Assembly (NCBI RefSeq): GCF_018873765.1
Contig: NC_057922.1
Location: 9,499,563-9,563,562, forward strand
Reading direction: 5' to 3'
DNA from: Telopea speciosissima
Lineage: Eukaryota; Streptophyta; Magnoliopsida; Proteales; Proteaceae
Length of the DNA: 64,000 bases
Below the pieces are notes generated by a model. That model worked only from the letters and a program-made list of their open reading frames with translations. It had not been told where the DNA came from and did not search any database. Made by a program: the position numbers and the translations under genes. Shown here piece by piece: positions 18,227-44,412 of the stretch (position 1 is the stretch's first letter; each line of letters opens with the position of its first letter).

Positions 18227-19139
18227 GGATAATTTACACATACCACCCTTGAGGTTGACGAAAGAATAATTTTACACATCAGTTTTGGATAATTATGCGT
18301 ATCCCCCTGAGGTTTACAAACGTTAATATTTACATCCATTCCGTCAGTTTATGACTGACAACGTTAAAAATACGATGTACACTGACAAAATTGCCCTTGC
18401 AAGGAAGAAAAAAAAAACACTTGCAACTCATCTTCCCCAATCGACTCATCTTCCCCAAATCGATTGGGAAAGATGAGTTGCATAGCTGCAAAGGCAGATA
18501 GCAACCAGTCCTTAGCGCTTGAGGTTTGACCACTCAACAGTAGATGTAACCCAACATGGTGCAACAGATCAGAGGGGAAGACGTTGAGCGGAACTCCAAC
18601 GGCTTCAACAGATCCAACAAGTCCACAAGCCAGCTCCTTTAACGCTGATGCAGGCAGCAGCACTACCTCAAGCTACCTCGAGCCAGGGGAAGAACCCGAA
18701 CACCTTACTCTCAGATCTCTGATAGATAGTGAGACGTTGAAGTAGGGCAACTCAGAGACACTTCGTAGCAATCACAAAACAGAGCTAGAGAGGTCTCAAT
18801 ATCAGAACAAAGATTTCCGCATCAGACCACCAAGCAGCTTAGTGAACCTCCGCTGTAGACTACCGAGATTGGAGAACCTTCGGAGGAAACAATGAAAACA
18901 ACTCGTCGAAAGCCCTAACAACAGTGGTGCTGACCACTGTTGCAGACTACCGAGCATAAGCCCTGCAAATGCCGATCTTCACCGCAACTCCGTCAAGCCC
19001 TAGTAGCAATACCCTAGTCGTGCTGGTGAAACAAGAAAGGAGTTCTAGCCGGACTGTGCTTGGGATTGGAGATGGGGGGCTTGATCTAGCCGACCTTTGT
19101 CGAGGATGGGGATGGGGAGAGTGCGTCAAGGAGATTGAG

Positions 19140-19176
<37 letters not shown>

Positions 19177-19632
19177 GAGTGATCGAGACCTCCAAGAGAG
19201 ATCTAAACCTTGCAAAGATCGTTCACCTCCTGAGGCAGTCCCTTCCCGAGCTGGCGAGATCCACTACTTGTAGCCGGGTGTTCCAAAACCACGGTGTTCC
19301 CTACAAGGATACCTACCTACAAAGGTTTTTTTCTTTCTTGCAAGGGCAATTTTGTCCCCTCCAAAGCTGGCGAGATCCACTACTTGTAGCCGGGTGTTCC
19401 AAAACCACGGTGTTCCCTACAAGGATACCTACCTGCAGTTTTTTTTCTTTTCTTTTTTGTAAGGGCAATTTTGTTAGTTCACATTGTATTTTTAACATTG
19501 TTAGTCTAAATTGATGGAATGGATGTAAGTGTTAACATTTGTAAACCTTAGGGGAGTACACAGAATTATCCAAAATTAGAGAGTAAAACTATACTTTCGT
19601 CAAACCTCAGGGGTGGTATATGTAAATTACCC
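18227..19632. mobile_element. Mutator-like element with about 200-bp inverted ends (copy 1)
   Basis: Long inverted repeats begin GGATAATTTACA (left) and GGGTAATTTACA (complement of the right end) and stay similar for about 200 bases. The 9-bp sequence TAAATTATA flanks both ends (18218-18226 and 19633-19641), the duplication length typical of Mutator elements. No transposase is present. The interior includes a minus-strand open stretch near 18480-18663, LLPASALKELACGLVGS, that looks like captured coding sequence, but I do not recognise it. A 113-bp tandem duplication lies at 19249-19460. It sits between the beta-galactosidase and SWI3C genes, about 450 bases upstream of the SWI3C ATG. Confidence 0.85.
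19144..19174. repeat. (GA)n microsatellite
   Basis: About 15 uninterrupted GA units inside the Mutator-like element. Confidence 0.9.
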
Positions 19633-20080: not shown

Positions 20081-23000
20081 ATGTCAGCTACCCTATCCTT
20101 TGCCACAGGTAAGCAATATCCCTGAGTCATTTTTCTTTCTCTTTCTCTGTGGGTGGATCTTGTGCTCTATCTCTCTGTGGGTGGATCTTGTGCTTAAATT
20201 GTTCCATTTTATGCTTCCGTTAGCTAACTTGCTCCAAGATTCTGAAGCAGAAGCTCGTGGTAAGTGGAAGAAGAGGAAGCGAGATATCAATATCGGAACC
20301 AACAGCAAGAGACAGAGAGCTGAAGAAGACGATGAAGAAGAGGAAGAGGACGACGAGGCCGACATCGATGAAGAAGAAGAAACCCCCACCATTGCCGCCG
20401 CATCGGCACCTACAGATCCCGTCATCGACTCACGAGAAAGTGAGGTCCTCTCGGACGGTGGGGGTGCTCGGATTTGTGACTTCCCTCCTGTAATTAAGCG
20501 CATTGTGAATCAACCACACTCTTCTGTCCTGTCGGTTGTTTCTGCAGAACGCGCTGCTCAATTCCCGGAACAGCGGTCTCTGCAAAACCAAAACCCTTTC
20601 TTCTTTGAGAACATATCTCATGGGCAGCTTCAGGCATTATCGGCCGTTCCAGCTGATAGTCCCTCTTTAGCCCCTTCGGATCATGACAGAGACAGGCCTG
20701 ATACGCCTCCACCTGCCTATGTATGTACTCCCCCGGCAATCATGGAAGGTCGGGGCGTCGTTAAGCGATTCGGGAACAATCGGGTACTCGTGGTTCCGAT
20801 GCACGCAGGTATGCGTTTTGCTCTTACTTCAATTTGTTCCTTTTTTTCTGCTTTAAGTTTCTGTTCCAAATATCGCGGGTTTGAATCTTTGATGATTTTG
20901 GTGGTACAGATTGGTTTTCGCCCAATTCAGTGCACAGATTGGAGAGGCAAGTGGTGCCACATTTCTTTTCAGGCAAGTCTGCAGAGCATACTCCAGAGAA
21001 ATATATGGATTGCAGGAACCGTGTTGTTGCCAAGTATATGGAGAACCCAGAGAAGAGGCTCAAAATTAATGATTGCCAAGGTCTGGCTCCTGGTATTGAC
21101 CTCCATGATTTGAATCGGATTTTTAGGTTTCTGGATCATTGGGGGATCATTAATTATAGCGTGGCTGCGATGAATCGAGAGGCTAGGATTGGTGGTCCGT
21201 TTCTAAGGGAAGATCTTAACGGGGAGATTCAAGTGCCTTCAGCTGCTTTGAGGTCCATTGATAGTTTGATTCAGTTTGATAGGCCCAAGAGCAGGCTCAG
21301 ACCTGCTGATGTTTCTTCATCGTCTTCTGGCCCTGGTGATGAGGGCGCCGATTTCGATAGCAGAATCAGGGAGCGTTTGGCTGAAAACTACTGCAGTTAT
21401 TGTTCTTGTCCTTTGTCCTCTGTGCAATATCAGTCGCAGAAGGAGGTAACTTTCTCTCTAATTATTGATGATACTATGGATTTTTTTTCTTTCTGCCTTG
21501 TGAGGGGGTTATGGATTTTAAAGTAACATTCATACTACCCAGTAGGCAGTAGGTGTAATTAATGGGTTCTTAACTTTCAGTGTGTTTTTATTTTTTCCTG
21601 AAGGATAGGTTAGTCAAACACCTAATGGCTTCAAGAAAGCAACTCTTACGTGCTTGCTTTAACTAATTTTATTCTTTGATAACAGAATCAATTTTATCGA
21701 TAAAAGCAGAATAATATATATACAAGGCCCGAGACAGAGATACCACATTTAGAAAGAGTGTTAAAAACTGAAGAGGGGACCTCTAAGCTAGACTTTGCAG
21801 TAGCTTATGATCTTTCCATTGTGAACACTTTCTTTGAAAAAGAAAGGAACACTTAGTTACCTACAAAAGTGGGATTCATTTATGATGCTAGAAACGAAGC
21901 TAGGAAGATTGTGGGGATGGTTAGGGCAAAGACATATGAGGATCTCTATATCAACCTAAACACAAAAGAGGGGGAAAAAGCTATTTATAAGATAGCTAAG
22001 ATGAGAGAAAGGAAGAGTAGAGATTTCGATTAGGTACGGTGTATCAAGGATGGTGGGGGGAGAGTGCTAGTAAGGGATGAGGACATTGTGAAGAGATGGG
22101 ACGAGTGTATTTTTGACCAACTAAATGGGGATAGGTCGAGTAGAATTGACCTAGACGAGTACTCTCTTCGATATGATACCACACATCATAGATATGTAAG
22201 AAAGATTAGTGTGGCGGAAGTTAAAGAAGCCCTAAGAAAGATGAAAACATGTAAGACAACAGGCCCATATGAGATTCCAATAGAAGTGTGGAAAACCTTA
22301 GGAGGTTGTGGGGTTTATTGGCTAACTAAGTTGTTTAACAGGATTATGACCACAAGGAAGATGGCAGATGAATGGAGGAGAATTATTGTAGTCCCGGTCT
22401 ATACAAATAAATGTGATATCCAAAGCTGCAATAACTACAGAAGCATAAAGCTTATGAGTCACACAATGAAACTTTGGGAGAAGGTTATTGAAGCCCGATT
22501 GAGAAGAGAGACTCTTATCTATCTCGATGAACCAGTTTGGCTTTATGTCAGGTAGATCCACAACTGAAGCTATCTACTTATTGAGGAGGCTTATGGAAAG
22601 ATATAGAGATAGCAAGAAGGATCTCCATATGGTCTTCATCGACCTGGAAAAAACCTATGACAGAGTCCCTAGAGATCTAATCCAACAGGTTCTAGTGAAG
22701 AGGAGGGTGTCAAGTAAATATGTAGATGTCATTAAAGATATGTATGAGGGAGTGGTGACTAGAGTGAGATTTGTGGGAGGTCAGGGTACGGAATTCCCAA
22801 TTACGATTGGATTACATCAGGGCTCAGCCTTAAGCCCTTACCTTTTTGCACTTATCATGGATGATATAACTAAGAGCATTCAAGGCGAAGTCCCATGGTG
22901 TATGCACTTTGCTGATGATATCGTTTTTGTGGATGAGACAAAAGAAGGGATTAACACTAAGTTAGAGCTCTGGAGGTCAACTTTGGAAACAAGAGGATTT

Positions 23001-26000
23001 AAGATTAATCGAACAAAGACAGAGTATATGATGTGTAATTTCAGTCACACCTTGATGGATACTAATATGGTGCGAATTGAGGAAAGAGAGATACCGCAAA
23101 GTGACTATTTTAGATATCTGGGATCAATAATAAGTAAAGAAGGTAACATAGAGGATGATGTTACACAGAGAATTAAAGTCGGTTGGATGAAGTGGAGAGG
23201 TGCGTCCGGAGTGCTGTATGAACGGCGTATTGCTCTAAAACTTAAAGGAAAGTTCTATAGGATAGTTGTTCGCCCGGCCATGATGTATGGGGCAGAATGT
23301 TGGGCTGTTAAGAAGTGTCATATTGATAAGCTTTGTGTAGCTGAGATGATGATGTTACGTTAGATGTATGGAAAAACAAGGAAGGATAAAGTGCGTAATG
23401 AACTTATAAGAGCGGACTTGGGAGTTGCCCTGATCAATGGTAAGCTTCGAGAGAGTCGTTTAAGGTGGTATGGTCATATTCAATGGAGACCTAGGGAAGC
23501 CCCAGTCAGGAGGAGTGATATGATTCCAATTGAAGGGGCTAAAAGAGCTAGGGGCAGACCTAAAATGACCATGGGAGAAGTGGTGAGGAAGGACATGCAT
23601 AGCCTAGGTCTGGTCCCAAGTATGACCTTGGACAGAGCCTTTTGGAGGGCAAGGATCCATGTCGCTGACCCCATTTAGCTGAGATTATCCTGACGTACTG
23701 GACTGTGCCTTTCTCCTCCTACTATCTTTCATCTTTCTATTTATTTCTCATTTTCCATTTGTCCTTTTCAATATATCTTTGTTTTCTCTTTTTGTTTTGT
23801 TCGGATCCATGTGGCCGACCCCATTAAGTTGGGATAAGGCTTAGTTTGTTGTTGTTGTTAAAAGCTGAAACCCTGAACTACATGAAGAAAGCATCACAAG
23901 GAAACAAATGCGGTAGTAGAACAGAAGACCCAAAACTCATTATCAGCCTATGAGCCTATGGACACCCTGTTGTCAGCTGATCTGCCACTTCATTAGCAGA
24001 TCTGGACTTCCAGTTGAATGATTTGTAAAGCAGTAGACCTGATACTTCCAATGACAGCAGCAAACCTCGATGGGACCTGAGAATCAGACCTCATCCAAGC
24101 TATGGAAGTATCGGAATCTCCCTCAACTAATAGATTGTGAAAACCATCTCTAAAAGCATATTCCAATCTGATCCACAATGACAGTGTCTCAACCCTTACA
24201 GAATTCCCTTCCCCAATTGGTGCTGGATAGGCTCTTAGGACTGCTCAACACTAGCTTTGTATGCCCTACCCACCAATGCACCCACCCCTGTCCTCAGTTA
24301 ACTAGTGAAGAACCATCATTGTTGAGCTTCACTACTATGTCCAGTGGAGGGCTCCACAGAATTACCCTTTGTTCTCCAAGAGTGGAGGATCTAATGATAA
24401 TATGATATTGTCCCAATCATCAAACTGTAAGAATGAAGCAACATTCTAGAATATGTAAGTGGTTGAGAACTTATCATGGAACAGCTGGGTATTTCTTTCT
24501 TCCCATAGAGACCAAAAGACTGATAATAGCATAGCCTTCCAAAGAAACCACTCCCGAGCTCCAAATGGTTACTTAAACTAATTATGCGAATAATGAACTA
24601 TCCCAAATCTCAAACTTGACATAACTAGGACAGTTGGTAATTGTGAAAGAAAAAACAAAAGATAGGAGTAATAATTGTTACTATTCTGGCTGGTCCAGTG
24701 GAGGGCTCCACAGAAATACTTTTTGTTCTCCAAAAATGGAGGATCTAATGATATTGTCCCAATCATCAACCTGTTAGGATGAAGCGTCATTCCAGAATAT
24801 GTAATTGGTTGAGAACTGATCATGGAACAGCTGGGTATTTCTTTCTTCCCATAGAGACCAAAAGACCGTTAATAGCATAGCCTTCCAAAGAAACCACGCT
24901 CGAGCTCCAAATGGTTGCTTTAACTGATTATGCAAATAATGAACTATCCCAAATAGGATGTAAACGGATCGGATAAGCCACTATCCGCATTCGAATCTGA
25001 TAATACTGGTTGATATCCTAATTCGATTCAATATCCGCTGGAATTGTAAAGATAATCTCGGAATTTGAATTCGACCAAGTAACAGATATCCAAGATATTC
25101 GGATATTCAATTTGAAACATGCAGTTGCAGGGAGGAGAAATCCCTTTTCAGAAAATATCAACCCATAGAATCGTTGCCAAATCAGTTCTTCATTACCAAG
25201 ATCAGCTACTAGCGACCAGCGAAAACAGAAAAGGGAACTCTGCTCTTCTACAGATCGGCTATAGCCATATCACTAACTTCAGCAAGATCTGCCCTCCTCG
25301 GCAACGGCGAGAACAGTGAAGATCAGCAGCTGCAAGATCAGCGACAGATCTTAACAATGACGAAAACAGCGATGGAGAGATCTGCGTCGGCGAGATCTTC
25401 CTCAGAATCACTCACTGAAACCCAGATCTGCAATTCTCCTAGTCTTCTTTGTCTCGCTATAATTTCTCTGAGTAGCAAAGGCACTAATGAAGAAAATCTT
25501 CATTACTCCTCAGTTCTCTTTTTCTCACCTTTAAATACCGGCTGTTCTGTTGTATATTTGCGTCGACGGCGACCCTGCGATTGCTTCTCCATCTTAAATC
25601 CTCAGCCCCAATCTTCCATTTTGTCTCACTCACTCTCTCCCTCTTCCTCTTCAAAAAGGAAAAACTCTAGAAGCTTCAAGAATCCTCACGGAAAATAAAA
25701 AACTAAGTTGAAAAACTATTGTTTATCATACCCAAGAGACAAAGCATAAAGTTGTTTGGTTGGTGGACCCTACTTTGGCTCTACCTTAACATCATATTTA
25801 TCGTGGATTGATTTCAAAAGTATGCTCTCCGCATTCCACGGCATTCACATTGGGAAATGTTACTTTTATAAATAACAATGGGAAAAAATAAATTATTGTT
25901 GGATATATGTATATATATATATATGGATCGGATCGGATATTATCTGATCGAATAGTGGGATATCCGAATTTGTGTCCGTTTAGTTTTCGGACGAATACGG

Positions 26001-32000: not shown

Positions 32001-35000
32001 TCCTGAATTTTGGTGGCATAGAAGTTTTTTTTTTTTAAAAGAGTTCCTGGTCCTACATGAGCTCTGTTTTGCTGATATATTGTCCTTTATTATTTTTTTT
32101 TGTGGGAAGGAAAACTTTTGACCATTTTTTTACTGTTAAATTTAAACCTGTCTTGAATTCCTGGTTTTTACTTAGGGAATTTCTAGAGAGATGCTGAGTT
32201 CTCTTATTGCATGAACTGATATATGTCTTGTTAAGTGGGGAAACAATATTGATATTCAGAGCTTTAGTATCAGCTATATATATATGTATAAAGGGGATGT
32301 TATGTTGTTTAATTTCATTTTGATGGGTCCTTAGAAGGATCCTTTTTTATAAGACATTTGTCATTATTTTTCTTTTGTTGTGTTGCCTCTGATCTAACTG
32401 TTGGAGAAGTTTTCTAGGTTGCCTTTCTGTCCTCTGCAGTGGGGCCGAGAGTTGCTGCCGCCTGTGCTCATGCATCATTAGCGGCATTGTCCAAGGAAGT
32501 GCACCAATCAGTTGCTTCCAATAACATCGTGCAAATGGAAGGTTCTGTTCATGGGGATAGGTGGGGTCTATATTCTTTCCAAGTTACCAATTTTACGCTC
32601 ACTTCTCTCTCTCTCTCTCTTTTTTTTTGGGGGAGGGGGAGGGGGAGGGGGGAGGGTGTAAACTTCAGTGATACGTTGTATTGTGTTTTTAGCAAATTCC
32701 GTACTGCTATATATATGAAACATGTGAAAGCACTGGAAAAATTTTCAGCCTTTCTTTTGTGTTGTACTGTTTCCTTCCTGAAATATTTTAGTTTTATGCT
32801 TTTTCCAATGAATCTAGGTTATTCTGGGAGAAAGTGAACTGAAATTGCTCTTTCTTGTGTGAAGGATTAGTTCAGACACTGCACATGGCAGAGATGGTAG
32901 TTCTCATGGAGGCTTGACAAACTCAAGTCACCACAAAGGTTTGTGCTTCATTCTGCTTTTCTTTATCTCTTAATCAGATTATCAGTTCTTTCCATATAAT
33001 AGTTCTTTGAATGAATATCAGAGGAAACAATGGTAGTACAAGGATTAAATGGTCAGGATGATACAGTTTCTGCCCCGTTGTCCATTGAAAGTGTGAAAAA
33101 TGCTGCACAATTTGGTCTAGCTGCAGCAGCAACAAAGGCAAAACTGTTTGCAGAACATGAAGAACGTGAGATTCAGAGAATGGCTGCTACAATTATAAAC
33201 CACCAGGTATGTTTGTGCTTCCCTTATTCTTTTACTATTATCCCATTTTCTTCTTTTTTTTTGCATAATATTTTAGGAAAAAAGGCTTTTGGGTCTAATA
33301 GTGCTGGAATAATCCAATGCTACATGCTGTTTCTTCTGGATGGATGATTTAGTTACTTAAAAGTTATTGGATAGATGGGAATTTTCCCTTTTAGGTCTCA
33401 TGTCAAATTTAGTGGTCCAGATCAACTCTATTGCTCACTGTGTTGAGGCTTTTCTTCTTCTAATTCAACATTCCAAGTTCTTCAAATAGGACTGCTTTTT
33501 CTAACAATTTAACTGCATTATGTTAACACGTGGCAGAGTCAGAGTGCATGAAAAATTAACCCATGCCTAGATGATGATGTGGACACAACAACAACAGCAA
33601 CAACAAACTCAGCCTTATCCCAACTTAATGGGGTCGGCTACATGGATCCAAGCAAAACAAGGTAGGGAAAACTAAGGTCTAAACAGAAAAGGGGGGGGGG
33701 GGGGAATGAAGAGATGAGAAAAGAGAGGTGGGAAATGAGTTGAGAAATGAAAAAAAAGGAAAATGACAAATGAAAGGTGGAAAATAAAAGAAAAATGAAA
33801 GATGAAAGAATACGAAAGTAAGAGGAAAGAGGCACAACACAGCAAGTCAGGACAATCTCAGCTAAATGGGGTTTGCTACATGGATCCTTGCCCTCTAATA
33901 GGCTCTACCCGAGATCATATTTGGAACTAAGGCCTAGACTAAGCATGCCCTTCTTCACAACTTCTCTTATGGTCATTTTAGGCCTTCCCCTAGCTCTTTT
34001 AGTTTAGCTCCTTCAATCGAGATCATATCACTTCTTACTGGGGCGTCCCTAAGCCTCCGTTAAACATGACCATACCATCTCAAACGACTCTCTCGAAGCT
34101 TGTCATTGATCAGGGCAACTCCCAAGTCAGCTCTAATACGTTCATTCCTTACTTTACCCTTTCTAGTGTTTCCGCACATCCATCTTAGCATCCTCATCTC
34201 TGTTACACAGCCTCTCAATATGACACTTCTTAGCTGCCCAACATTTTGCCCCATACATCATTGCCAGTCGTACAACAGTCCTATAGAACTTTCCTTTAAG
34301 CTTTAAAGGAATACATCGGTCACACAACACCCTAGACGCACCTCACCACTTGATCCATCCTACTTTAATTCTCTGTGAAACATCATCGTCTATGTTACCT
34401 TCTTTATTTATGATTGACCCCAAATATCTAAAATAGTCACTTTGCGGCATCTCTCTTTCCTCAATTTGCACCATGTCAATGTCCATCATAATATGACAAA
34501 AATTACACATCATATACTCCGTCTTCGTTCTACTAATTTTAAAGATTCTTGTTTCCAAGGTTGATCTCCATAGCTTTAATTTAGAGTTAATCCCTTTTGT
34601 TTGTCTCATCCGCCTAAACGATATCATTGGCGAAGAGCATACACCACAGGACCATGCTCTTGGTTAGATCATCCATGATAAGCACAAATAAATAAGGACT
34701 TAAGGCTGATCCCTGATGTAACCTAATGGTAATTGGGAATCCCTTGCCCTAACCTCCCACAAATCTCACACTAGTCACCACGCCCTCATACATATCTTTA
34801 ATTACATCCACATATTTACTCGACACTCCTCTCTTCACTAGAATATGCCGGATTAAATCTCCAAGGATTCGGTCATAGGCTTTTTCCAGGTCAATAAAGA
34901 CCATATGGAGATCCTTCTTGGTATCTCTTTATCTTTACACGATCTCCTTAATAAGTAGATATCTTCTATCGTGGATCTACTTGGCATAAAGCCAAACTAA

Positions 35001-38000
35001 TTCACCGAGATATGTGTCTCTTCTCAAACGGGCTTCAATAACCTTTTCCCAAAGTTTCATAGTGTGACTCATTAGCGTTATGCTTCTATAGTTATTGCTG
35101 CTTTGGATATTACCTTTATTTTTGTAAATCGGGACTACAATGCTTCTCCTCCATTCATTTGGCATCTTCCTTGTGTTCGTAATCCTGTTAAACAGCTTGG
35201 TTAGCCTATAAACTCCACAACCTCCTAGGGTTTTCCATACTTCTATTGAGATCTCATCTGGGCCTGGTGTCTTTCTTGCTTTCATCTTTTTTAGGGCTTC
35301 TTTAACTTCTGTGTCTCCGCCACACTAACCTTTCTAACATATCCATGACGTGTGGTGTCATGTTGAATAGAGTACTCATCCGGGTCAATTATACTCGACC
35401 TATCTCCATTTAATAGGCCATAGATATACTCATCCCATCTTTTCACAATGTCCTCATCCCTTACCAACACTCTTCCATCATCACCCTTGATACACCTCAC
35501 CTGATCGAAATCTCTATTCTTCCTTTCTCTCATCTTAGCTATCTTATAAATAGCTTTTTCCCCTTCTTTTGTGTTTAGGGTTGATATATAGATCCTCATA
35601 TCACTAGCTGAACTACAATGTGGTAATGTTGGCCAATGTGCTGGATTGGCTTTCAACACTGTCAGTACTGGAAACAATCATCCATATTTCCTCCCTACAC
35701 TTACATATGTTTCTCTAGAAAATCAAGGTTATACGATAGTTTCATCTGAAAAAAGATGTAGAATGACATAGCTGGCTTATCTTTCATCTTTTGAAGGGCA
35801 TCTTGTACCGCAATATTTCAAGGGTCTGTGGTGAACCTTTATCTTCAGGTTGCTTAAAGATAAACTTACCAACTACTAAAATGTGAACAACTTGAGCTCT
35901 GGCAGGAAGTTTTAAATGCCTTAGTTATCTTTGAAAGTGTCATACTAAGAAGTCATAATATTGTGATCATATCTGCAATATGTGAATGCAGATGCTATCT
36001 GAAGGAGTGAGAAGGTGCCAACAACTAATTTATGCAGCATTATGCATCTATCTGAGCTTTTTGAACTTGAATAAGTTTACCAATACAAGCATTTATACTG
36101 GGAACAAGATGATAGTCTATTTTTGGGACTGAAAAATGATAGAATTGAAACTCGCTCAGAATTTTCCATCTTTAACCTCTGTGGAGTCCCTAATCAAGTC
36201 ATTAGAGCTTTTAATCTGTCTGAAATGCCAGTGATGGCGGGTAGGTAGGATGAAACCTAGGTTCAGATTAAACACCTCTCTTACTAGATCCCAAGTAAAC
36301 CCAAATTGAAAGTCAACAAAAGTCAACCTTCTCAGATGAAGGTCAAACTCTGACAAACACCCAAAATCAATAGAATAGATGCTCTTCAGAAGATGGCGAT
36401 GATCTTGTTAGCAGTAAAACAGAGTATAAGAAAAAAGAAAAAGAAAGATAACAATGGCTTCTCACCAACTGGGTCAGAATCCTACTGTCCTAGGCTTCAC
36501 ACCATGACTGAATCGCACAACATACATGCAGAACTTCAAAATTTAATTTCATAAAATCGTTTTTTCATGACTATGTCTAAGTGATTTCCACCCTGTTTTT
36601 CATGACTATATCTTATGACATTAAAGTTGCCTCCCAAACCCTAAGGGAGAGTTCCAATCTGACTTGCAATGGAGCGTAAGTCGGCCCATAAAGAAAACCT
36701 CTGAGAAGGGCAACTGTGAGCATAAACCGCTGTGAAAAGGAAGCTGAATTGATCAAGACAGTCCGAGAAATTGGTTGCATGTACTGAGGAGATGAAGAAA
36801 TGAGGGAAATTTTAATTTTACAAGGATCCCATAAGACCCAGATAAGGGAATAGTTGGAAAGAAGAGACCAACCAGGAGCAATGGAATTCAAGATTCGGGC
36901 AGAGTTAGGCTCTTTGATATGAGTTTCTAACAGGCAACAAAAACTTGCATGGAGCTGGCGAAGGCAGGATCAAACAGCAGCATGTTTAGTGGGGGAATTG
37001 AGACCCCTGGTGTTCCAAATGACACCATGATTCATTTGGACAGCGGGAGGAGAGGCAACAATGGCCCATGGAGCCTAGAGAGAAAAGACTTGGGCGGGGA
37101 AGAACTTTTGTGCCGTCGACAATAAGAGCAAACAATGGAGGGAAAAGCTGGAGGGACAAGAGAGAGGTTGGTATCACTGGATGAAGGGGACTGACCTTAA
37201 ACCAGAGGGAAGGATTACGAAGGAGATGATGGGAGAGAGGTGAGAGTGGTTTCCGGGTTAGAAGGTTTAATGGTGGAAGAGGGAGGCGGATCTCCAGAAG
37301 AGCTAACCTGAAAACCCGAATGGGGAAGGTTAATGAAAGTTCTGGGGCTTGGGTGAAGAGGGCTACAAAGAATGGGACCAAGGGTGGATGGGCTAGACAA
37401 GAAAGTGGGGACCACAAGGGGGAGTTAGATGAGAGAGAGGGAGTGGGATGTGGAGAAATAAAATGGGATGGTGGCCCTACAAGGGAAGGGTTAAAGGGAG
37501 TACAATTTCGATGTAAAGTTTCGAGGCCAGGGGAGGTGACAGAATCAGATCGCAAAGAGGAAATACCGTCAAGGAGAAGGTCGCAAGCGACAGACTGCGA
37601 GGTTTGCTGGTTTTCCGACAGCAGCGGCGAAGCAGATCAAGGCATAGATGATCCTCCACCAGGGAAGCTAGGTAGAGAAGATTAACACAAGGGGTCCCCT
37701 GCCATGCGAGATTGACTTCGATGAGTAGCATGAAACTGGAGCACCTCGGGGCAGGCTCTAGGACCTGACACTTCAACAGAGGACAAGACGTTGAATCTGT
37801 TTTGATCAACGGGTAAAGACTTGAGGCTCTGGGAGGGGTCCTTCGAAGCAGTAGAGACTTGAGCACCTTTCCGGTGATGATTCAGACGCCGAGTCTTGGT
37901 TCTCGGCCTACCTCGGGAGGGAGATTGATCTTTGGTTTGGCAAAATGGGGTACTGAGAATAACCTAAGAAGAAGCAAGATTTGCAGCCTGATCATCACCG

Positions 38001-41000
38001 ATGGAAATGTTCGAAGCAAGGTCTGAGGTGCCTTTTGGTGTGCAGAGGCTAGTATCGTGTCCAAAGGACATGCACACCAGACAATGGTGGGGGGGTTTCT
38101 AGTTGAAGTGTACTTGTTCAAAGGAGTCATCTTCTCCTCCTTTCACTGTAATAAAGGAAGGTAAAGGGTCAGCTGCTAAGACCTCAACACATATTCTCGC
38201 AAACGCCATGTGGTCTTTCTTCATAGTTCTGACATCAGAAAAAGGGGGGGGGTTCCCATAACAGATCCCACAGTACTTCGGCCTTTAGTGCACTAGTAGT
38301 GGAGTGGGAGACCTGGTAGGGAAACCCAGAGAGGAATAGAAGACAGGTCAACTCGCTAGAGTTGGAGCTGATAGTGCCATTGACGTAGGAAGATGGGTTT
38401 CTTCCCAACTTGCCACAGGCCACCTTCAAGAGCACGAACCTTGTCGAGATCCTCAAAGAATTTGAAGATAAAGAACCCATTGTCTAGAAGAATAATATCA
38501 AGATTTTCATGGGCACGCCATTGCTTGGAGAGGGAGAGTTTGACAATATGGAATGGGGGTCTTGAGCCACGGAAGTGCCCAACGAAACAGTTTTCCCAGA
38601 GTTTAGCTTCATCTTCAAGGAAGGTAGGAGGACAAAGAGCAATTTTGGAGGAACCAACAGTGGAAGGGGCAATGAAGTGGAGGGGTAGGCCTTCAAACGA
38701 GGTAGCAAGGGCAAGATTGAAAAGAGACTCCATTGAGAAGGAGGTGGAGCAGCAGGGGGAGGGGGGAGGGGGGAGGGGCCGGTGGAGGAAAGGTGGAAAT
38801 CCTAGGGGATAATGGCATACCCCCAGATAGACGGGATGAAGAGAGAAGCGAAGATTTTAGACCGGCCAGGATGGTCGATGATCAAGAAAAACCATAGCAG
38901 CAGTAGTCGCCAGCTTCAAGCACTCAAAAACCCTAAAGGAAAAAATATGAAAGCTCATTTAATGCAACCACAACCAAGAATTTGCCTTGTTCTAGTATGA
39001 GGTGGTTATTGGCCTTTGTTTTTTATGTTTTGGGTTGTAATGGGTTCAATTGTAAAGCCCAAACGTTTCGTCCCAAGCGGGGTGGGGAACTCATCCCTAT
39101 CTCAACTTCCCCCTAGCGCTAACCCTGCCCTTGCGGGCTGTTCGCTCTTTGAATCAAAGTAGAGTAGGTTTGCTACTTTCTCAAATTTTCTCTGATCCTC
39201 GCCCACCCATGTGAAAACACCATCACGTGGCACCAAACACTTGAACTCCGTACTCTGATACCAAGTTGTAACTCATAGTAGGAAGAGTCGAGACTGTAGG
39301 GAGAGAAGAAGAATAATTCAGAAGAGTGGATTGTAGTGAGTACGATCTCGCCTCGGCCAGTTTTAGTAAAGACTGTTTTAAACTAAAATACCAGATATAC
39401 TGTTACCAAACATGTAATGACCCCAAACTCGGACATGGTATAAAGTCTGCCCTCACGGGCATTGATCAGAAATCACCTTTCACATTTGTATAAATAACTA
39501 TCCAACGGAAGACTTAACACTACTAGAGTTGGGATATATATAACACTGGTGGCAATTAAACAATTATTACAAAGCTCTTGTGAATTTGAACTTTATTGCA
39601 AAACATGTTCTTTCTCTTTCTCACATCATAACTCTTACTGTTCACAAACGTTTCTCTCAATGCTGTTCCCTAGGTTGGTGCACCATGTACACTCACAACC
39701 CAAAGAGTTTGGAGTTGTACAAACCTCTCCTCTGAACTCATCATCTAAAAAGAATATTTATAACAGGGATGAGCATAATACAGACAAATGCTCATGTGCA
39801 TCTTTAACAGTGTACAAATAAGAATACTACGTTTTATTGTTGGATTAGATCTTAAGTCATTATTGTGAAATACCATTTATGCACATACAGTTGAGGTTAG
39901 CCTGGCCTCATGTCATCTATTCAACTCTTTATCCCAGTACTGCACCCCGGGAGAGGAATGCCTCGGCTTGTACTCGTACTTGTGTTTTCGTAGTCCCAAA
40001 GGTTGGCTCGTAGTCTCGAAGGATAACTCGTAGTCCCAAAGGATAGCTTGTAAAAAACCTCATCCAGTACCTAACCCCCTAGTGGAAAGGGATGGTATTC
40101 ACAGGGTCATGTTCTCTTAATATCACTATTACCAATCTCAAACACTTGATTCACCTAACTCGTACACAACTTGTCATGTAACATCTCAACATAAACTTCT
40201 AATCATAATGCATTTCATATACTATCAACATACATTTACAACTCCTGTATACAAGGTAAACATTCAATAATTCACATCATGCTCATTAACTAATTAACAT
40301 TTCATAAGAGAACCAAAATTATGGTTATACAATCCAAACTACTAAACCAGCACTTGTAACAATTCACAATAAACAATGATACAAATATACACATACACCA
40401 AATAGTCATTCTATTATACAAATACAAGCATGATTCCTTCACCTTGTTTCTTCTTAACACATATACTATCACACTCACTAGCGCTTGAGAAAATAGATAT
40501 TCCTACATGTACAAGTAGCTAACATTAATATTGACAACATTACAGTAGCTAAAACAGTGCCCAGAGTTTTGCTGGTGAGCTTGTTTTTCTCCTATTTTGA
40601 CTTGGATTTAGACACATTTAGAAGCGGGAATTGGGATAATCCTATTTGTATATAAATGATAGTTTTATGAGTCTAGTTTCAAACAAAACTTGAGTCATTC
40701 AATTCAGAGTTGAAACGAGGGAGATATGCCCTCTAGACTACCCAAAGGTCAATCTTCCAGAACCAGAAAACTCAAACTAAAATAAAGGTTTTGAATGGGG
40801 TTTAAACCTCATCTTTTTGAAGCATTCTGATGGGGTTTTGAACCCTTTTAAAAACAAACTATAACACTAATAAATTAATTAATTTATTCCTAATTCAAGA
40901 TTAACAGATCAGGTTAAGAAAGTCAAGAGAACTCACTTTGAAGGTTCTCCTCCACTCAAAATCTCCTTTCAATTTGAAGTTCCAGCATCACAGTGAATCA

Positions 41001-44000
41001 GTATCCTCAATTGATACTCCCTTTGAAGCAATAACCTAACAAATTCTCAATACTCATCCACCACTTAAATCCATTATTGAAACTTATTGAAATTCTGAAC
41101 TTGTACATACCTTAAGAATACTATATACAACATGATTTGCTCTTCTATCCTCTCCCAATTTCACAAGTCCAGAACTAAATCCACAACCACGATTCACTCT
41201 CCTAGTTTCTTAGTTCAACAATCCAAATCAAAACAATCGATTCCTCTTAGTCTAGCTTAGAAAAGCTTACTAGGTACTATCTCAACTCACTAATCTAATT
41301 TTGGTTTAATTATTTCAACTAAGCCGTTTACTAACTTAGATTAATTAGACTAATAGTACACCATTTACCTTGTCAAACTTAGCTAATAGAATATTTGACA
41401 GTTACTAGTCAAGCACATGACACCTTGTTGCCACCTCCTCCTTACCTTACTATGTGGCTGAGTTCCTATTGCCACCACCACCTTGGCCTTGCAAATGGTG
41501 GCTGTCCACTACCATGCAACCACCTCCTTTCCTATGCATATGGTGGCAGTCCACTTCCGTGCCACCACCTTCTTTCCTACTCATGTGGCTGCCACCACCA
41601 CGTTTCCCATGCACATGGTGGCGGCATCACCACATGAAACCATGTAGACCAATCCTAATCAGCCACCACTAAATATCCACTAAGTTAATTAATTCCTTCT
41701 TAGTCTAAATAATGCTAATTACACTAGAAAACTATGGTTAGTTCTAAGCTGCCACCTCCTACTTCATTATTCACATAATAAAAATAAATCAAATATACTC
41801 AATTAAATCCTATTAAAATAAGGGTAATTTACACATACCACCCCTGAGGTTTGACGAAAGGATGATTTTACCCCCTAGTTTTGGAAAATTCTGCGTACCC
41901 CCCTGAGGTTTACAAACGGTAACAAATAAACCCATTCCGTTAGTTTTTGACTAACACTGTTAAAATCAAAAGGTAAAGTGACAAAAATGCCCCTTCAAGG
42001 AAAAAAAAAAAAAACCTGCAACTCATTTTCCCCAAATCGATTGGGGAAGATGAGTTACAGGTATCCCCATCGATTGCTCCATCCATGGCTTCTAATGGAA
42101 CATCTCCGGTGAGCTTCCCTGCACTGTCACTCATCTTAAAGATCTCCACTCCATTAAGCATTGAATCGTAGCATTTAGACTTCAACGAAACCGCCGGATG
42201 CATTGCCAACCAGAGCTCCTGTGTTAGTCATGTCCAGCAAGGCCTCCTCCGATCAGTGGTGGATGAACTATCTCGAAAACTCGTACACATGCCCAAGCAA
42301 GGCCTCCTCCGATCAGTGGACCAGCCCAGTACACCCAATGGTTTGTCCATGTCCAGCTCACCAACGCCGGTCCGAAAGAGACAGTCGGGTTCATCGACGC
42401 CCCATCGAAAGCTCCATCGGCCAAAATGTTGGCTCCCACAATGAAACCAATCGCTAAGGGTGCTATAGTCCCTAAGCTTCCCTTCTTTGGGTCCACCGCC
42501 GTTGCATACACTGTGTACACCAGCCCAAAGGTCATCACTATCTTGAAAACAAACGCGTTCCACACCCCAACCCCTGACGACAATGAAAACGCTGATGTTC
42601 ATAAACATAAACACAAAATCTCCTCTTTATCTTCCGTTTTCAAAGCTAGAATGTTTTAAGTTAAAAAAAAACAATGGAAATCGAAAACTAACCATGCCGC
42701 CGGTGGCAAACTTGAGAAGCAAGCAGGCGACGGTGGAGCCTAGAAGCTGAGTGATCCAGTATAGAATACCATGGAGGAGAGTGATGTTACCACCGACGAA
42801 AGCTCCAAATGTGACAGCAGGGTTAACGTGGCCACCAGAGATGTTAGCTCCGACGGAGACAGCAACGAAAAGACCAAAAGCATGAGCCAAAGCGGCGGCC
42901 ACGAGACCGGCAGGGGTGGATGAACCATTGTTAGTGAGCTTGTTGAAGGCCATGCCAGAACCCTCGCCTGTGAAGACGAAAATGAGTGTGCATATGAACT
43001 CGGCCAACGCGGCCTTCAAAGCGTCCGAGTGAGTCGCTTCCTCGGGTCCACCCTTTGAGATCCTAGAGATCGACATCTTCGATCACTGGTCAGACGATCA
43101 AACGACACTTCTAGCTGCACAGGGACTGAAGAAACGGAGAGTCGATTGATCTCAAAACTCGCTCTTTCGTTGCAAGCAGGATCTGATCTCCACATTTCTT
43201 CCTCGTTAGCCTACTTATATTGCGTGACCAAGCCTATTCTTCACTGCCTATAGCCAGTTTCCCAGTCAAACCGATCGACACCAAAAAGCAAATGGAGAAG
43301 GTGCAGAACTGCACTTCTGCACCGCACTGGAACTCTGGTTGGCAATGCGTCCGGCGGTTTCGTTGAAGTCTGAATACTATGATTCAATGCTTAATGGAGT
43401 GGAGATCTTTAAGATGAGTGACAGTGCAGGGAAGCTCACCGGAGATGTTCCATTAGAAGCCATGGATGGAGCCTGTAACTCATCTTCCCAAATCGATTTG
43501 GGGAAGATGAGTTGCAAGTTTTTTTTTTTTTTCTTCTTTAAGGGACATTTTTGTCACTTTACCTTTTGATTTTAACAGTATTAGTCATAAACTGACGGAA
43601 TGGGTTTATTTGTTACTGTTTGTAAACCTTAGGGGGGTACGCAGAATTTTCCAAAACTGGGGGGTAAAATCATCCTTTCGTCAAACCTCAGGGGTGGTAT
43701 GTGTAAATTACCCTTAAAATAATTATAAAATAATATACCTTACATTTTTATAATATAAAATATTATGCTACTCAATAAAATAATATATTAAATCAAAATA
43801 TTGAGCATTGTATATTTACATTTTTATGCCATTGATCAAGCTCCAAAATTACAATTATGCCACTGCTCATGTTCAGATGTTTTCTTCGACATAGTATTTC
43901 CTGAAAGAAATTTATGAAAGTTTCTATTGTCAATGCAGTTGAAGAGATTAGAGCTGAAGCTGAAGCAGTTTGCAGAGGTGGAAACCTTGTTGATGAAAGA

Positions 44001-44412
44001 ATGCGAACAGGTGGAGAGGACAAGGCAGAGGCTTGTGGCTGAACGGGTTCGAATTATCTCAACCCGACTTGGACCTGCTGGAACATCTAATACTATCCTA
44101 CCAGGTGCTAGTGGTGGTGTTGTGGCAAGTAGTAGTGCTGTTAACAACAGACCACAACTTATATCAGCACCACCTGCACAGGCAAACATCCCAGCATATG
44201 GGAACAATCAACCGAGCCATCCACATATGTCCTTCATGCCACGGCCACAAATGTTTGCATATGGACCTCGATTACCCCTCTCTGCAATTCATCCCTCTTC
44301 ATCGGCCCCTTCAAGTAGTGTCATGTTCACTTCTGCTCCAGGTGCAGCCCCCCCGACCCTTACTCATCCCATGTTAAGACCTGTATCTGGGACTAACACC
44401 AACGTAGGTTGA
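20081..44412 (+). CDS. SWI3C: SWI/SNF chromatin-remodelling subunit SWI3C (9 exons over 24.3 kb)
   Basis: Exons: 20081-20108, 20224-20808, 20910-21445, 27513-27876, 27975-28033, 32418-32560, 32865-32938, 33022-33206, 43939-44412; all GT-AG, giving 815 aa. After a basic KWKKRKR stretch and an acidic run come the SWIRM domain (about 205-288, [17 protein letters not shown]), a ZZ zinc finger (about 364-411, Cys pairs including CSDC), a SANT domain (about 422-469, [15 protein letters not shown]) and a C-terminal coiled coil (about 635-690, [20 protein letters not shown]). Order and text match Arabidopsis SWI3C (CHB3). Family knowledge: SWI3C pairs with the BRM ATPase in BAF-type complexes that move nucleosomes in the nucleus. 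Introns 3 (6.1 kb), 5 (4.4 kb) and 8 (10.7 kb) are swollen by transposons. Intron 3 splits the ZZ finger. The ATG at 20081 is chosen because exon 1 splices in frame to the conserved KWKK region. Confidence 0.95.
21866..23862 (+). mobile_element. RTE-type LINE, 5'-truncated and mutated, in SWI3C intron 3
   Basis: Sense-strand reverse transcriptase remnants. One frame gives the fingers region ([20 protein letters not shown], then NEWRR-like and NNYRSI-like blocks). After a frame shift comes [12 protein letters not shown], then [16 protein letters not shown] and the catalytic FADD (in [11 protein letters not shown]), and later RLRWYGHIQ near the C-terminus. The 3' end is 'GACCCCATTAAGTTGGGATA' followed by GTTGTTGTTGTT, the short-repeat tail typical of RTE elements. 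The endonuclease domain is missing. Stops at 22033, 22555 and 23361 break the frame. Confidence 0.88.
23930..26165 (-). mobile_element. L1-type LINE 3' remnant (RNase H-like end), antisense in SWI3C intron 3, with tandem duplication
   Basis: Read on the minus strand, this gives the closing part of a plant L1-type polyprotein: [15 protein letters not shown], then KLNNDGSSL (the start of the RNase H-like domain), [14 protein letters not shown] and [12 protein letters not shown]. About 355 bases are duplicated in tandem: 24337-24692 and 24693-26163, both beginning 'CCAGTGGAGGGCTCCACAG'. The second copy is split by a hAT-like insertion at 24955. It lies opposite to the RTE element beside it. Confidence 0.7.
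24955..26095. mobile_element. hAT-like element (1141 bp) in the duplicated LINE remnant
   Basis: The same end type as the element at 9916: AGGATGTAAACGGAT at the left and the complement of AGGGACGTCAACGGAT at the right. TATCCCAAAT is repeated at 24945-24954 and 26096-26105, so the target duplication is 8-10 bases with an ambiguous edge. The interior has no transposase. Because it cuts only one of two tandem LINE copies, its empty site can be read directly in the other copy. Confidence 0.75.
26659..27218. mobile_element. hAT element (560 bp) in SWI3C intron 3
   Basis: The inverted ends CATAGTTGTCA and TGACAACTATG are perfect. The flanks CTATTCAC and CTACCCAC look like an aged 8-bp target duplication (two mismatches). 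The same ends occur on the 113-bp element at 28858. An inverted pair of SINEs is nested inside at 26774-26981. Confidence 0.75.
26774..26981. repeat. Inverted pair of Au-type SINEs
   Basis: An antisense SINE tail (26774-26848, with GGGTCTGGGAGGGGC and CAGCCTTACCCC) is followed by a sense copy (about 26855-26981) that ends in its complement (GGGGTAAGG, then GCCCCTCCCAGACCC). The sense copy still has a B-box-like GGTTCGAAAC. The arms could pair over about 75 bases. The copies lie inside the hAT element at 26659. Confidence 0.7.
28858..28970. mobile_element. hAT MITE (113 bp) in SWI3C intron 5
   Basis: Perfect 11-bp ends CATAGTTGTCA / TGACAACTATG. The flanks ATGCTAAG (28850-28857) and ATGCTTAG (28971-28978) are an 8-bp target duplication with one change. 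It is a short relative of the element at 26659. Confidence 0.85.
29510..30480. repeat. Probable retroelement debris with a 105-bp tandem duplication, SWI3C intron 5
   Basis: T-rich sequence at 29640-29880 has the look of an LTR, but ends and primer site are not visible. From about 30064 the phrase 'GGTTCTCTGTTCTGTCCGTT' followed by CAGCAATACCCACAGTCAGT is repeated about 105 bases later (30167 on). The protein-like frames here are chance. Confidence 0.35.
31046..31080. repeat. Short perfect hairpin in SWI3C intron 5
   Basis: TTTTTACTATTTT and its complement AAAATAGTAAAAA are separated by about seven bases. No T-run terminator context or known function. Confidence 0.6.
32629..32658 (+). repeat. 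G-quadruplex-type G tracts in SWI3C intron 6
   Basis: Five runs of five or more G separated by single A residues, on the sense strand, 70 bases after the exon 6 donor and directly after CT and T runs. Such a stretch could fold as an RNA quadruplex in the pre-mRNA. Confidence 0.75.
33582..35604 (-). mobile_element. RTE-type LINE, second copy, antisense in SWI3C intron 8
   Basis: The reverse complement of this stretch matches the copy at 21866 throughout: [52 protein letters not shown] and RLRWYGHV. It ends in the same '(CCCCATTAAGTTGGGATAAG)' and TTG-repeat tail, seen here as CAACAACAAC at 33582 on the plus strand. It is broken by stops and shifts and is 5'-truncated, starting a little further downstream than copy 1. 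Flanking target duplications were not found. Confidence 0.85.
36600..38860 (-). mobile_element. L1-type LINE: ORF1 (DUF4283 and zinc knuckle) and start of endonuclease, antisense in SWI3C intron 8
   Basis: On the minus strand, in order: a DUF4283-like region (38734 to about 38240, with [19 protein letters not shown]), a CCHC zinc knuckle (about 38085-38038, [14 protein letters not shown]), a Ser/Pro-rich linker, then the start of an AP-endonuclease, [13 protein letters not shown] (about 36950-36910), continuing to an IWVLWDP motif near 36840. This is the gene order of plant L1-type elements. The reverse transcriptase part is missing at the 3' side, and several shifts and stops show it is inactive. 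Confidence 0.75.
39040..41390. mobile_element. Probable LTR-retrotransposon debris in SWI3C intron 8
   Basis: The plus-strand string CTCTGATACCAA at 39253-39264 is the complement of TTGGTATCAGAG, the primer-binding site paired with initiator tRNA-Met. It lies two bases from TGTAAC at 39267, which would be the end of a minus-strand LTR. A second LTR-like start, TGTAATGACCCCAAACTCGG, occurs at about 39413. No gag or pol sequence and no second LTR were found, so limits are guesses. Confidence 0.4.
39985..40055. repeat. 23-bp tandem repeat
   Basis: Three diverged copies of 'CTCGTAGTCCCAAAGGATAG', inside the LTR-like sequence. Confidence 0.7.
41405..41640. repeat. Minisatellite of about 62-66-bp units
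   Basis: Three to four diverged copies rich in GCCACCACC and ATGGTGGC, which can also pair with each other. The open frames across it are repeat artefacts. Confidence 0.55.
42060..42215 (-). pseudogene. CrRLK1L receptor-kinase fragment, left arm
   Basis: Minus-strand frame [20 protein letters not shown] followed by [16 protein letters not shown]. This matches the end of the malectin-like ectodomain of FERONIA-type receptor kinases ('[13 protein letters not shown]'). It is part of the inverted arm, with an identical partner at 43333-43473. Confidence 0.7.
42224..43076 (-). pseudogene. Captured tonoplast aquaporin (TIP1-type), broken
   Basis: Exon 1 (43076-42693, 128 codons) encodes an intact N-terminal half with [12 protein letters not shown], the first NPA loop, and ends at a GT donor. 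The second exon (from about 42598) restarts at [18 protein letters not shown], but the base pair before it is GA rather than AG, so the acceptor seems lost. The second pore motif reads [10 protein letters not shown], with NPT instead of NPA. The C-terminal tail is missing: after PLIGGGLA the frame enters a 60-bp tandem duplication and ends at a stop. A source TIP channel moves water or small solutes across the vacuolar membrane; this copy should not. Upstream, 43077-43250 looks like captured 5' UTR and promoter, with TATAAGTA near 43213-43220. Confidence 0.88.
43333..43473 (+). pseudogene. CrRLK1L receptor-kinase fragment, right arm
   Basis: Plus-strand frame VGNAS-like start, then [19 protein letters not shown] and [18 protein letters not shown]. 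The [13 protein letters not shown] core is better kept here than in the left arm (CYDSML). It is oriented in sense with SWI3C and cannot make a kinase by itself. Confidence 0.72.

Follow-up and report, generated by a model that had tools for sequence, protein, structure and literature searches.

The window, the whole 64,000-nucleotide stretch of Telopea speciosissima DNA analysed here, contains a 1,892-bp element inserted into an intron of a gene for chromatin remodelling, and the evidence argues strongly that it is a non-autonomous Mutator-like element (Pack-MULE) built by serial gene capture. We infer that FERONIA sequence was captured first, that the arm carrying the FERONIA end came by copying to occupy both sides of the element, and that an aquaporin gene was captured between the arms afterwards. 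The initial annotation had proposed gene capture by a Mutator-like element; the Pack-MULE stands, but the aquaporin was not its first capture, and the element derives from an older, FERONIA-carrying Pack-MULE.

Table 1. Features of the Pack-MULE and its surroundings (window positions).
Feature	Position	Strand	Evidence
Host intron of the SWI3-type gene, GT...AG	33207–43938	+	Exon frames, Pfam domains, splice sites
Left target-site duplication, TTAAAATAA	41813–41821		Flank match and empty sites
Whole Pack-MULE, 1,892 bp	41822–43713		Ends, arm alignment, target duplication
Left TIR core common to the family, closing in a short palindrome (42015–42060)	41822–42059	+	Family arm alignment
Left subfamily-specific arm piece, common to L091, L093 and L089	42060–42118	-	Genome search
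Left 104-bp FERONIA remnant, 96/104 identical to C8 FERONIA	42115–42218	-	Translated match, alignment
56-bp junction filler of aquaporin and TIR snippets	42220–42275	-	Tiling with exact pieces
Captured TIP aquaporin segment, 1,056 bp (parental 1,066 bp, L010 2370–3435)	42276–43331	-	Parent alignment
Remains of aquaporin exon 2, with a 1-bp insertion and without the deleted 3′ splice site and the C terminus	42276–42598	-	Parent alignment
Open exon 1 of the aquaporin (128 codons) with a single NPA motif	42693–43076	-	Frame, Pfam
Captured aquaporin 5′ region, TATA-like stretch at ~43210–43222	43077–43331	-	Parent alignment
Right 104-bp FERONIA remnant	43330–43433	+	Translated match, alignment
Right subfamily arm piece; internal ~15-bp deletion also in the C9 copy	43434–43472	+	Arm alignment
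Right TIR core, read inward from 43713	43473–43713	-	Arm alignment
Right target-site duplication, TTAAAATAA	43714–43722		Flank match and empty sites

The element is abutted at each end by TTAAAATAA (9/9), a match that random 9-bp pairs from the same intron reached in 52 of 400,000 draws. It is nested in a dispersed repeat, which occupies about 41600–41821 and 43723–43870 of the window. Both flanks were fused with a single copy of the duplication, and this probe was aligned to other copies of the repeat. One copy on C6 spans the fused joint with 335 identities, 32 mismatches, and 5 gaps, and another on C7 with 262 identities, 23 mismatches, and 38 gaps; each contains one TTAAAATCA and lacks the element. 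Such empty sites with a single target settle the insertion and its 9-bp duplication, and the perfect duplications described at the outset are thereby upheld. The suspicion that the flanks and arms are an assembly artefact was rejected, since the two copies of the flanking repeat are continuous through the insertion point without the element.

The host intron opens with GTATGT at 33207 and closes with CAG at 43938; the element ends 225 bp from the acceptor. The flanking exons encode ...IINHQ and LKRLELK.... Pfam recognised a SWIRM domain at 20885–21523 (9.7e-25), whose relatives of solved structure are RSC8, SMARCC2, and SWI3, and a SWIRM-associated domain at 43939–44409 (1.3e-11). These two domains identify the gene as SWI3/SMARCC-type; to judge by its C-terminal tail, it is probably SWI3C. 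With SWI3/SMARCC-type exons on both sides of a GT-AG intron, the placement of the element inside a chromatin-remodelling gene was correct. In this position, the Pack-MULE would be inert cargo, removed by splicing. A paralogue of the last host exon lies on C3 (85%), and no element was found in the 2.9 kb upstream of that exon, which weakly favours a later insertion. The same TIR family is represented a second time in the window, by an element at 18227–19632 with TAAATTATA on both sides and TIRs that are 81–83% identical; it lies ~ 0.45 kb upstream of an open frame (20082–21113) that seemingly contains the first host exon. Open frames in the host introns at 34343–38856 and 22034–23678 resemble, by eye, pieces of LINE/non-LTR reverse transcriptases.

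The cargo is an antisense, two-exon TIP aquaporin, of which exon 1 matches Pfam MIP (7.8e-35) and the solved TIP2-1 (8.6e-42). A search of the genome (822,943,500 bases in 1,287 contigs) with 42220–43250 gave 13 matches; the best non-self ones were at C2:24.14 Mb (95%), at C2:12.53 Mb (95%), and in a 273-bp piece on C9. The parental TIP gene that the search was expected to reveal is located at C2:12.53 Mb (L010), on a different contig from the window, where an intact 251-aa frame is interrupted by one 100-bp intron and no inverted arms are present. The captured stretch begins 257 bp upstream of the parental start codon and breaks off 47 bp before the stop codon ends.

The two arms reach 402 (left) and 389 (right) bases from the element ends; of the 390 positions in their alignment, 373 are identical and 17 are gaps. 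The inverted arms of 0.38–0.39 kb that had been reported are thus real as regards their inversion and similarity, but their reading as plain TIRs was rejected because each ends in 104 bp of FERONIA. The translated inner arm matches FERONIA (8e-11) and ANXUR1 (4e-5), and Pfam gave no match at 0.01 for the 48-aa inner-arm piece. For a 156-bp inner-arm query starting at 42070, the best 40 of 113 candidates in the genome were scored. Matches of at least 126 bases occurred among these at eight places in six element loci, namely in both arms of the window element and of the element at C2:24.14 Mb, and once each on C11, on C6, at C9:58.14 Mb, and at C9:54.22 Mb. The C8 FERONIA gene matches the query in its FERONIA part only (46–151), and the other 31 of the 40 match within the first 51 query bases only, which is subfamily arm sequence. 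Because the arms were not made identical at insertion, their divergence is unusable as a clock. In most of 24 aligned arms, the common TIR core ends in a short palindrome around ATCGAT (e.g., 42015–42060 and 43474–43516).

The FERONIA parent is the C8 gene (L095), whose open frame is 908 aa long. On C6 and C11, two complete members of the TIR family contain about 1.1 kb of FERONIA cargo between their arms, with 1061 identities and 67 mismatches to the gene in the former and 1075 and 54 in the latter; the longer FERONIA cargo of a relative matches Malectin_like (Pfam, 4.2e-24). The C6 element is flanked on both sides by TTTAATTAA (by eye) and the C11 element by ATTATTTTT. The locus at C9:54.22–54.23 Mb, whose right part keeps columns 24–104 of the FERONIA remnant, looks like a third FERONIA element, split by a large insertion. 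In the FERONIA elements, the right arm alone continues into the FERONIA end, and the trimmed left arm adjoins the start of the ectodomain. As the FERONIA end occurs in only one of their arms, FERONIA was captured before the aquaporin. FERONIA meets the subfamily arm in a joint with a ~ 4-bp overlap (GGAA), and this joint is the same in both arms of the aquaporin elements and in the FERONIA elements. Such a joint should arise once; therefore, the arm was duplicated, and the aquaporin element was derived from a FERONIA element.

Six positions set all seven full-length remnant copies in the comparison apart from the FERONIA gene; at four of them the base is identical in all copies, and at the other two one copy has changed again. 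To judge from the sequences, these common differences fit descent from one captured copy, and a change of the FERONIA gene after the capture would look alike. The arm tree places the arms of both aquaporin elements, four in all, in one unresolved fan of 26 rows, and 24 of the 47 inner branches are under 80; the tree speaks neither for nor against the copying of one arm to both ends.

The second aquaporin element, at C2:24.14 Mb, is flanked by TTAATATTT and TTAATATTA (8/9), and its 56-bp filler is identical to that of the window element. Sixteen differences from the parental gene are common to both copies, and seven to all three within the C9 overlap. The identical filler and the shared differences indicate one aquaporin capture, followed by spread. 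Single sites group the window copy with C9 in one case and C2 with C9 in another. The locus at C9:58.14 Mb (L011 1660–3050) consists of the right arm, FERONIA, the 5′ part of the aquaporin and the start of exon 1, and then a glycosyltransferase-like fragment (UGT74F2, 9e-6), for which Pfam gave no match at 0.01. A search of this locus for a left TIR, with as many as 9 mismatches allowed in the 31-bp end, found none. The ~ 15-bp deletion in the right arm is common to this locus and the window copy.

The two joints of the aquaporin segment are of different make. The promoter-side joint has a 3-bp microhomology (TCC). At the 3′ joint, read on the sense strand, the end of exon 2 is followed by TTCGAGATAGT (exon 2), GTTCATCCACC (exon 1), CCACTGATCGGAGGAGGCCTTGCTGG (exon 2), GCTGGACATG (exon 2), ATGACTAACAC (TIR), and AGGAGCTCT (FERONIA), with overlaps of 2, 2, 2, 5, 3, and 0 bases along the way; the four aquaporin patches in the filler are all of the same strand. 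Seven exact pieces from the aquaporin parent and a FERONIA element, six of them at least 8 nt long, tile the 72-bp junction. Dinucleotide shuffles need a mean of 12.3 pieces and window segments 12.1, and none of the 5000 of either kind could be tiled by as few as seven. Among GC-matched segments, 58 of 5000 did so at first and 0 of 5000 after trimming; we attribute the former count to arm sequence of the family within the pool. Taken alone, the part of the junction before the 26-bp patch was equalled by 4 of 3000 shuffles and 13 of 3000 window segments, and the part after it by 6 of 3000 and 10 of 3000, respectively. We regard the patchwork 3′ junction as the trace of repeated template switching.

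A break within the FERONIA cargo would have left a broken right arm, which may have primed repair synthesis that switched to the aquaporin gene and copied about 1 kb of it. The synthesis would then have stuttered, laying down four short patches of aquaporin and one of TIR before it finished on another copy of that arm; a transposase provided in trans presumably mobilised the resulting element. Stuttering is seen at one end alone, which suggests that the synthesis started on the promoter side, at the broken arm. That both arms end in FERONIA at nearly the same base fits either copying to the end of the broken arm or a join between sister copies. More tentatively, the element may have been reborn from one end, with two copies of a single broken arm (e.g., on sister chromatids) joined head to head via the stuttered aquaporin patch.

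The near-coincidence of the FERONIA remnants, which start within about one base of each other, would also follow simply from conversion between inverted arms. The aquaporin would then have been caught between two different arms, and the right arm would later have overwritten the left one, stopping near the border between FERONIA and the aquaporin. We consider this possible, but somewhat doubtful. Next to the left border lies the patchwork filler with its TIR patch, which fits repair during the capture better. Moreover, no aquaporin element with unequal arms occurs among the eight places with FERONIA arm sequence; the single-arm C9 locus, lacking its other side, is uninformative in this respect. 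Repair during the capture remains our preferred reading of the duplicated arm.

As for the cargo itself, the antisense two-exon TIP with its 5′ region was correctly recognised, and the 5′ region extends to 43331, but the copy is broken and neutral-looking. The parental gene differs from the window copy at 40 of 1,055 aligned bases and from the sister copy at 36 of 1,063, and the two copies differ from each other at 42 of 1,052. Changes private to either copy comprise 21 non-synonymous and 7 synonymous ones, those common to both copies relative to the parent 1 and 6 (private vs. shared, Fisher p 0.006); the pairwise Ka/Ks values of 0.43 and 0.41 include the parental branch. On this sequence comparison, the copies look as if they drift neutrally while the parent is constrained, and we saw no sign of function in the element. 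It is very improbable that the antisense aquaporin is expressed from its captured promoter, or regulates the host gene or the parent. Its 5′ region with the TATA-like stretch is kept and exon 1 is open over 128 codons, but the window copy has the 3′ splice site deletion, a frameshift, and no C terminus, the sister copy has lost 1 bp of exon 1, and the private changes look neutral. A functional aquaporin was rejected on the evidence of the splice site, the frame, the lost C terminus, and these private changes.

Hairpin silencing has a precedent in Mu killer. The intronic arms (402 and 389 bases, 373/390 identical) might, within the host transcript, fold into a hairpin with FERONIA in its stem and give rise to small RNAs silencing the TIR family or FERONIA. 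We give this little credence, as exact 21-mers matching the FERONIA stretch number two in the left arm and zero in the right arm. Finally, the idea that the aquaporin locus is ancestral and its flanking repeats a coincidence, for which nothing speaks apart from the open exon, can practically be dismissed given the armless parent elsewhere, the sister element with its own target duplication, and the empty sites in the repeat copies on C6 and C7.

The 31-bp TIR end has 366 exact occurrences in the genome, and the same pattern read backwards has 0. A genome search with 174 bp of TIR yielded 2,624 first-look candidates, of which the best 40 were scored. The target duplications of 23 family elements with both ends matched 9/9 in 16, 8/9 in 4, and 6–7/9 in 3, in a sample for which 20 elements were chosen for their paired TIR ends, two further loci (L093 and L097) failed the end pattern, and some duplications are of low complexity. 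In 24 members, the arms end at most 3 bp past the common core or fall short of it in ten, reach 14 bp beyond it in one and at least 25 bp in eight, and the core end was not found in five. The two aquaporin elements have the longest reach at the left end (402 and 398), and L075 reaches 453 on the right via a gapped alignment. The frames of the family members L087 and L088 suggest that their two arms differ in inner extension, with GGTTTCAAAACC... on the left and the window subfamily piece on the right, as after something like a swap.

Six short members were picked as gene-like from a set of 18, and the one frame examined in each has a Pfam match: protein kinase, ABC transporter, cytochrome P450, kinesin, 3′-5′ exonuclease, and F-box LRR (below the cut-off). 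Inside the window element, no transposase was recognised among the frames of at least 70 aa, which were inspected by eye (TIP, the arms, and their other frames), with Pfam applied to exon 1 and the right arm. MULE transposases are abundant in the genome, and none of the best 150 of 827 candidates could be tied to the family TIRs when compared by eye with the listed TIR sites. One member, L073 (C1:79.36 Mb), is 6.8 kb long, has a perfect 9-bp duplication, and gives hAT-type matches in three of four frames (DUF659, 1.8e-54; Dimer_Tnp_hAT, 8.7e-12; zf-BED below the cut-off); these are at odds with a MULE and may reflect a nested hAT insertion. For two frames of the other long member (L074), Pfam gave no match.

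Pack-MULEs reportedly go back to Jiang et al. in 2004, a paper cited in PMC3310237. The element in the window resembles them in its 9-bp target duplication, its TIRs within 100–500 bp, and the fact that no transposase was recognised inside, as well as in its host gene fragments with parents elsewhere (TIP L010, FERONIA L095), its occurrence in more than one copy, and its GC-richer cargo (here 0.499 vs. 0.404 for the intron minus the element), all features given in PMC3310237. It differs from them in that both arms end in a remnant of earlier cargo and that relatives of the earlier stage survive in the genome. Acquired sequence within extended TIRs of Pack-MULEs is mentioned in PMC3310237, citing Hanada 2009 and Lisch 2002; there, as here, acquired gene sequence forms part of both arms, but here the source gene, the one-armed precursors, and the next capture are all identifiable. 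The tandem-TIR MULEs of tomato, described in the same paper, likewise have arms altered by added sequence, but the added piece is a second TIR there and gene-derived here.

In Tan et al. 2021 (PMC8277862), gap-filling and FoSTeST models are presented for Pack-TIRs, and template switching is proposed. Our element resembles the cases described there in template switching with short microhomology and in the additional sequence inserted at one of the breakpoints. The breakpoint insertion of Ssk-FB4, 45 bp long, is called de novo in that paper (PMC8277862), whereas every patch of the 56-bp insertion described here can be assigned to the cargo gene or the TIR. No Pack-MULE with aquaporin or FERONIA cargo was found in the openly licensed literature, and the openly licensed matches listed include no description of serial capture with a patchwork joint. 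The kind of element is thus known; what is added is an ordered genealogy of captures and the patchwork joint.

Gene acquisition by Pack-MULEs is called unresolved in both PMC3310237 and PMC8277862. The T. speciosissima genome preserves successive stages of it, from subfamily arms without FERONIA to the FERONIA element and the aquaporin element, with known donors and exact joints. The repair model becomes directly testable through the microhomology at the first joint, the patched second joint, and the remnant of former cargo in both arms. Long “TIRs” can include coding sequence taken up by capture, and this would mislead the annotation of repeats and any dating from the divergence of the arms. 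If the element was indeed reborn from one end, a single surviving TIR would suffice for gene capture by a MULE, and the inverted arms would themselves be a product of the capture.
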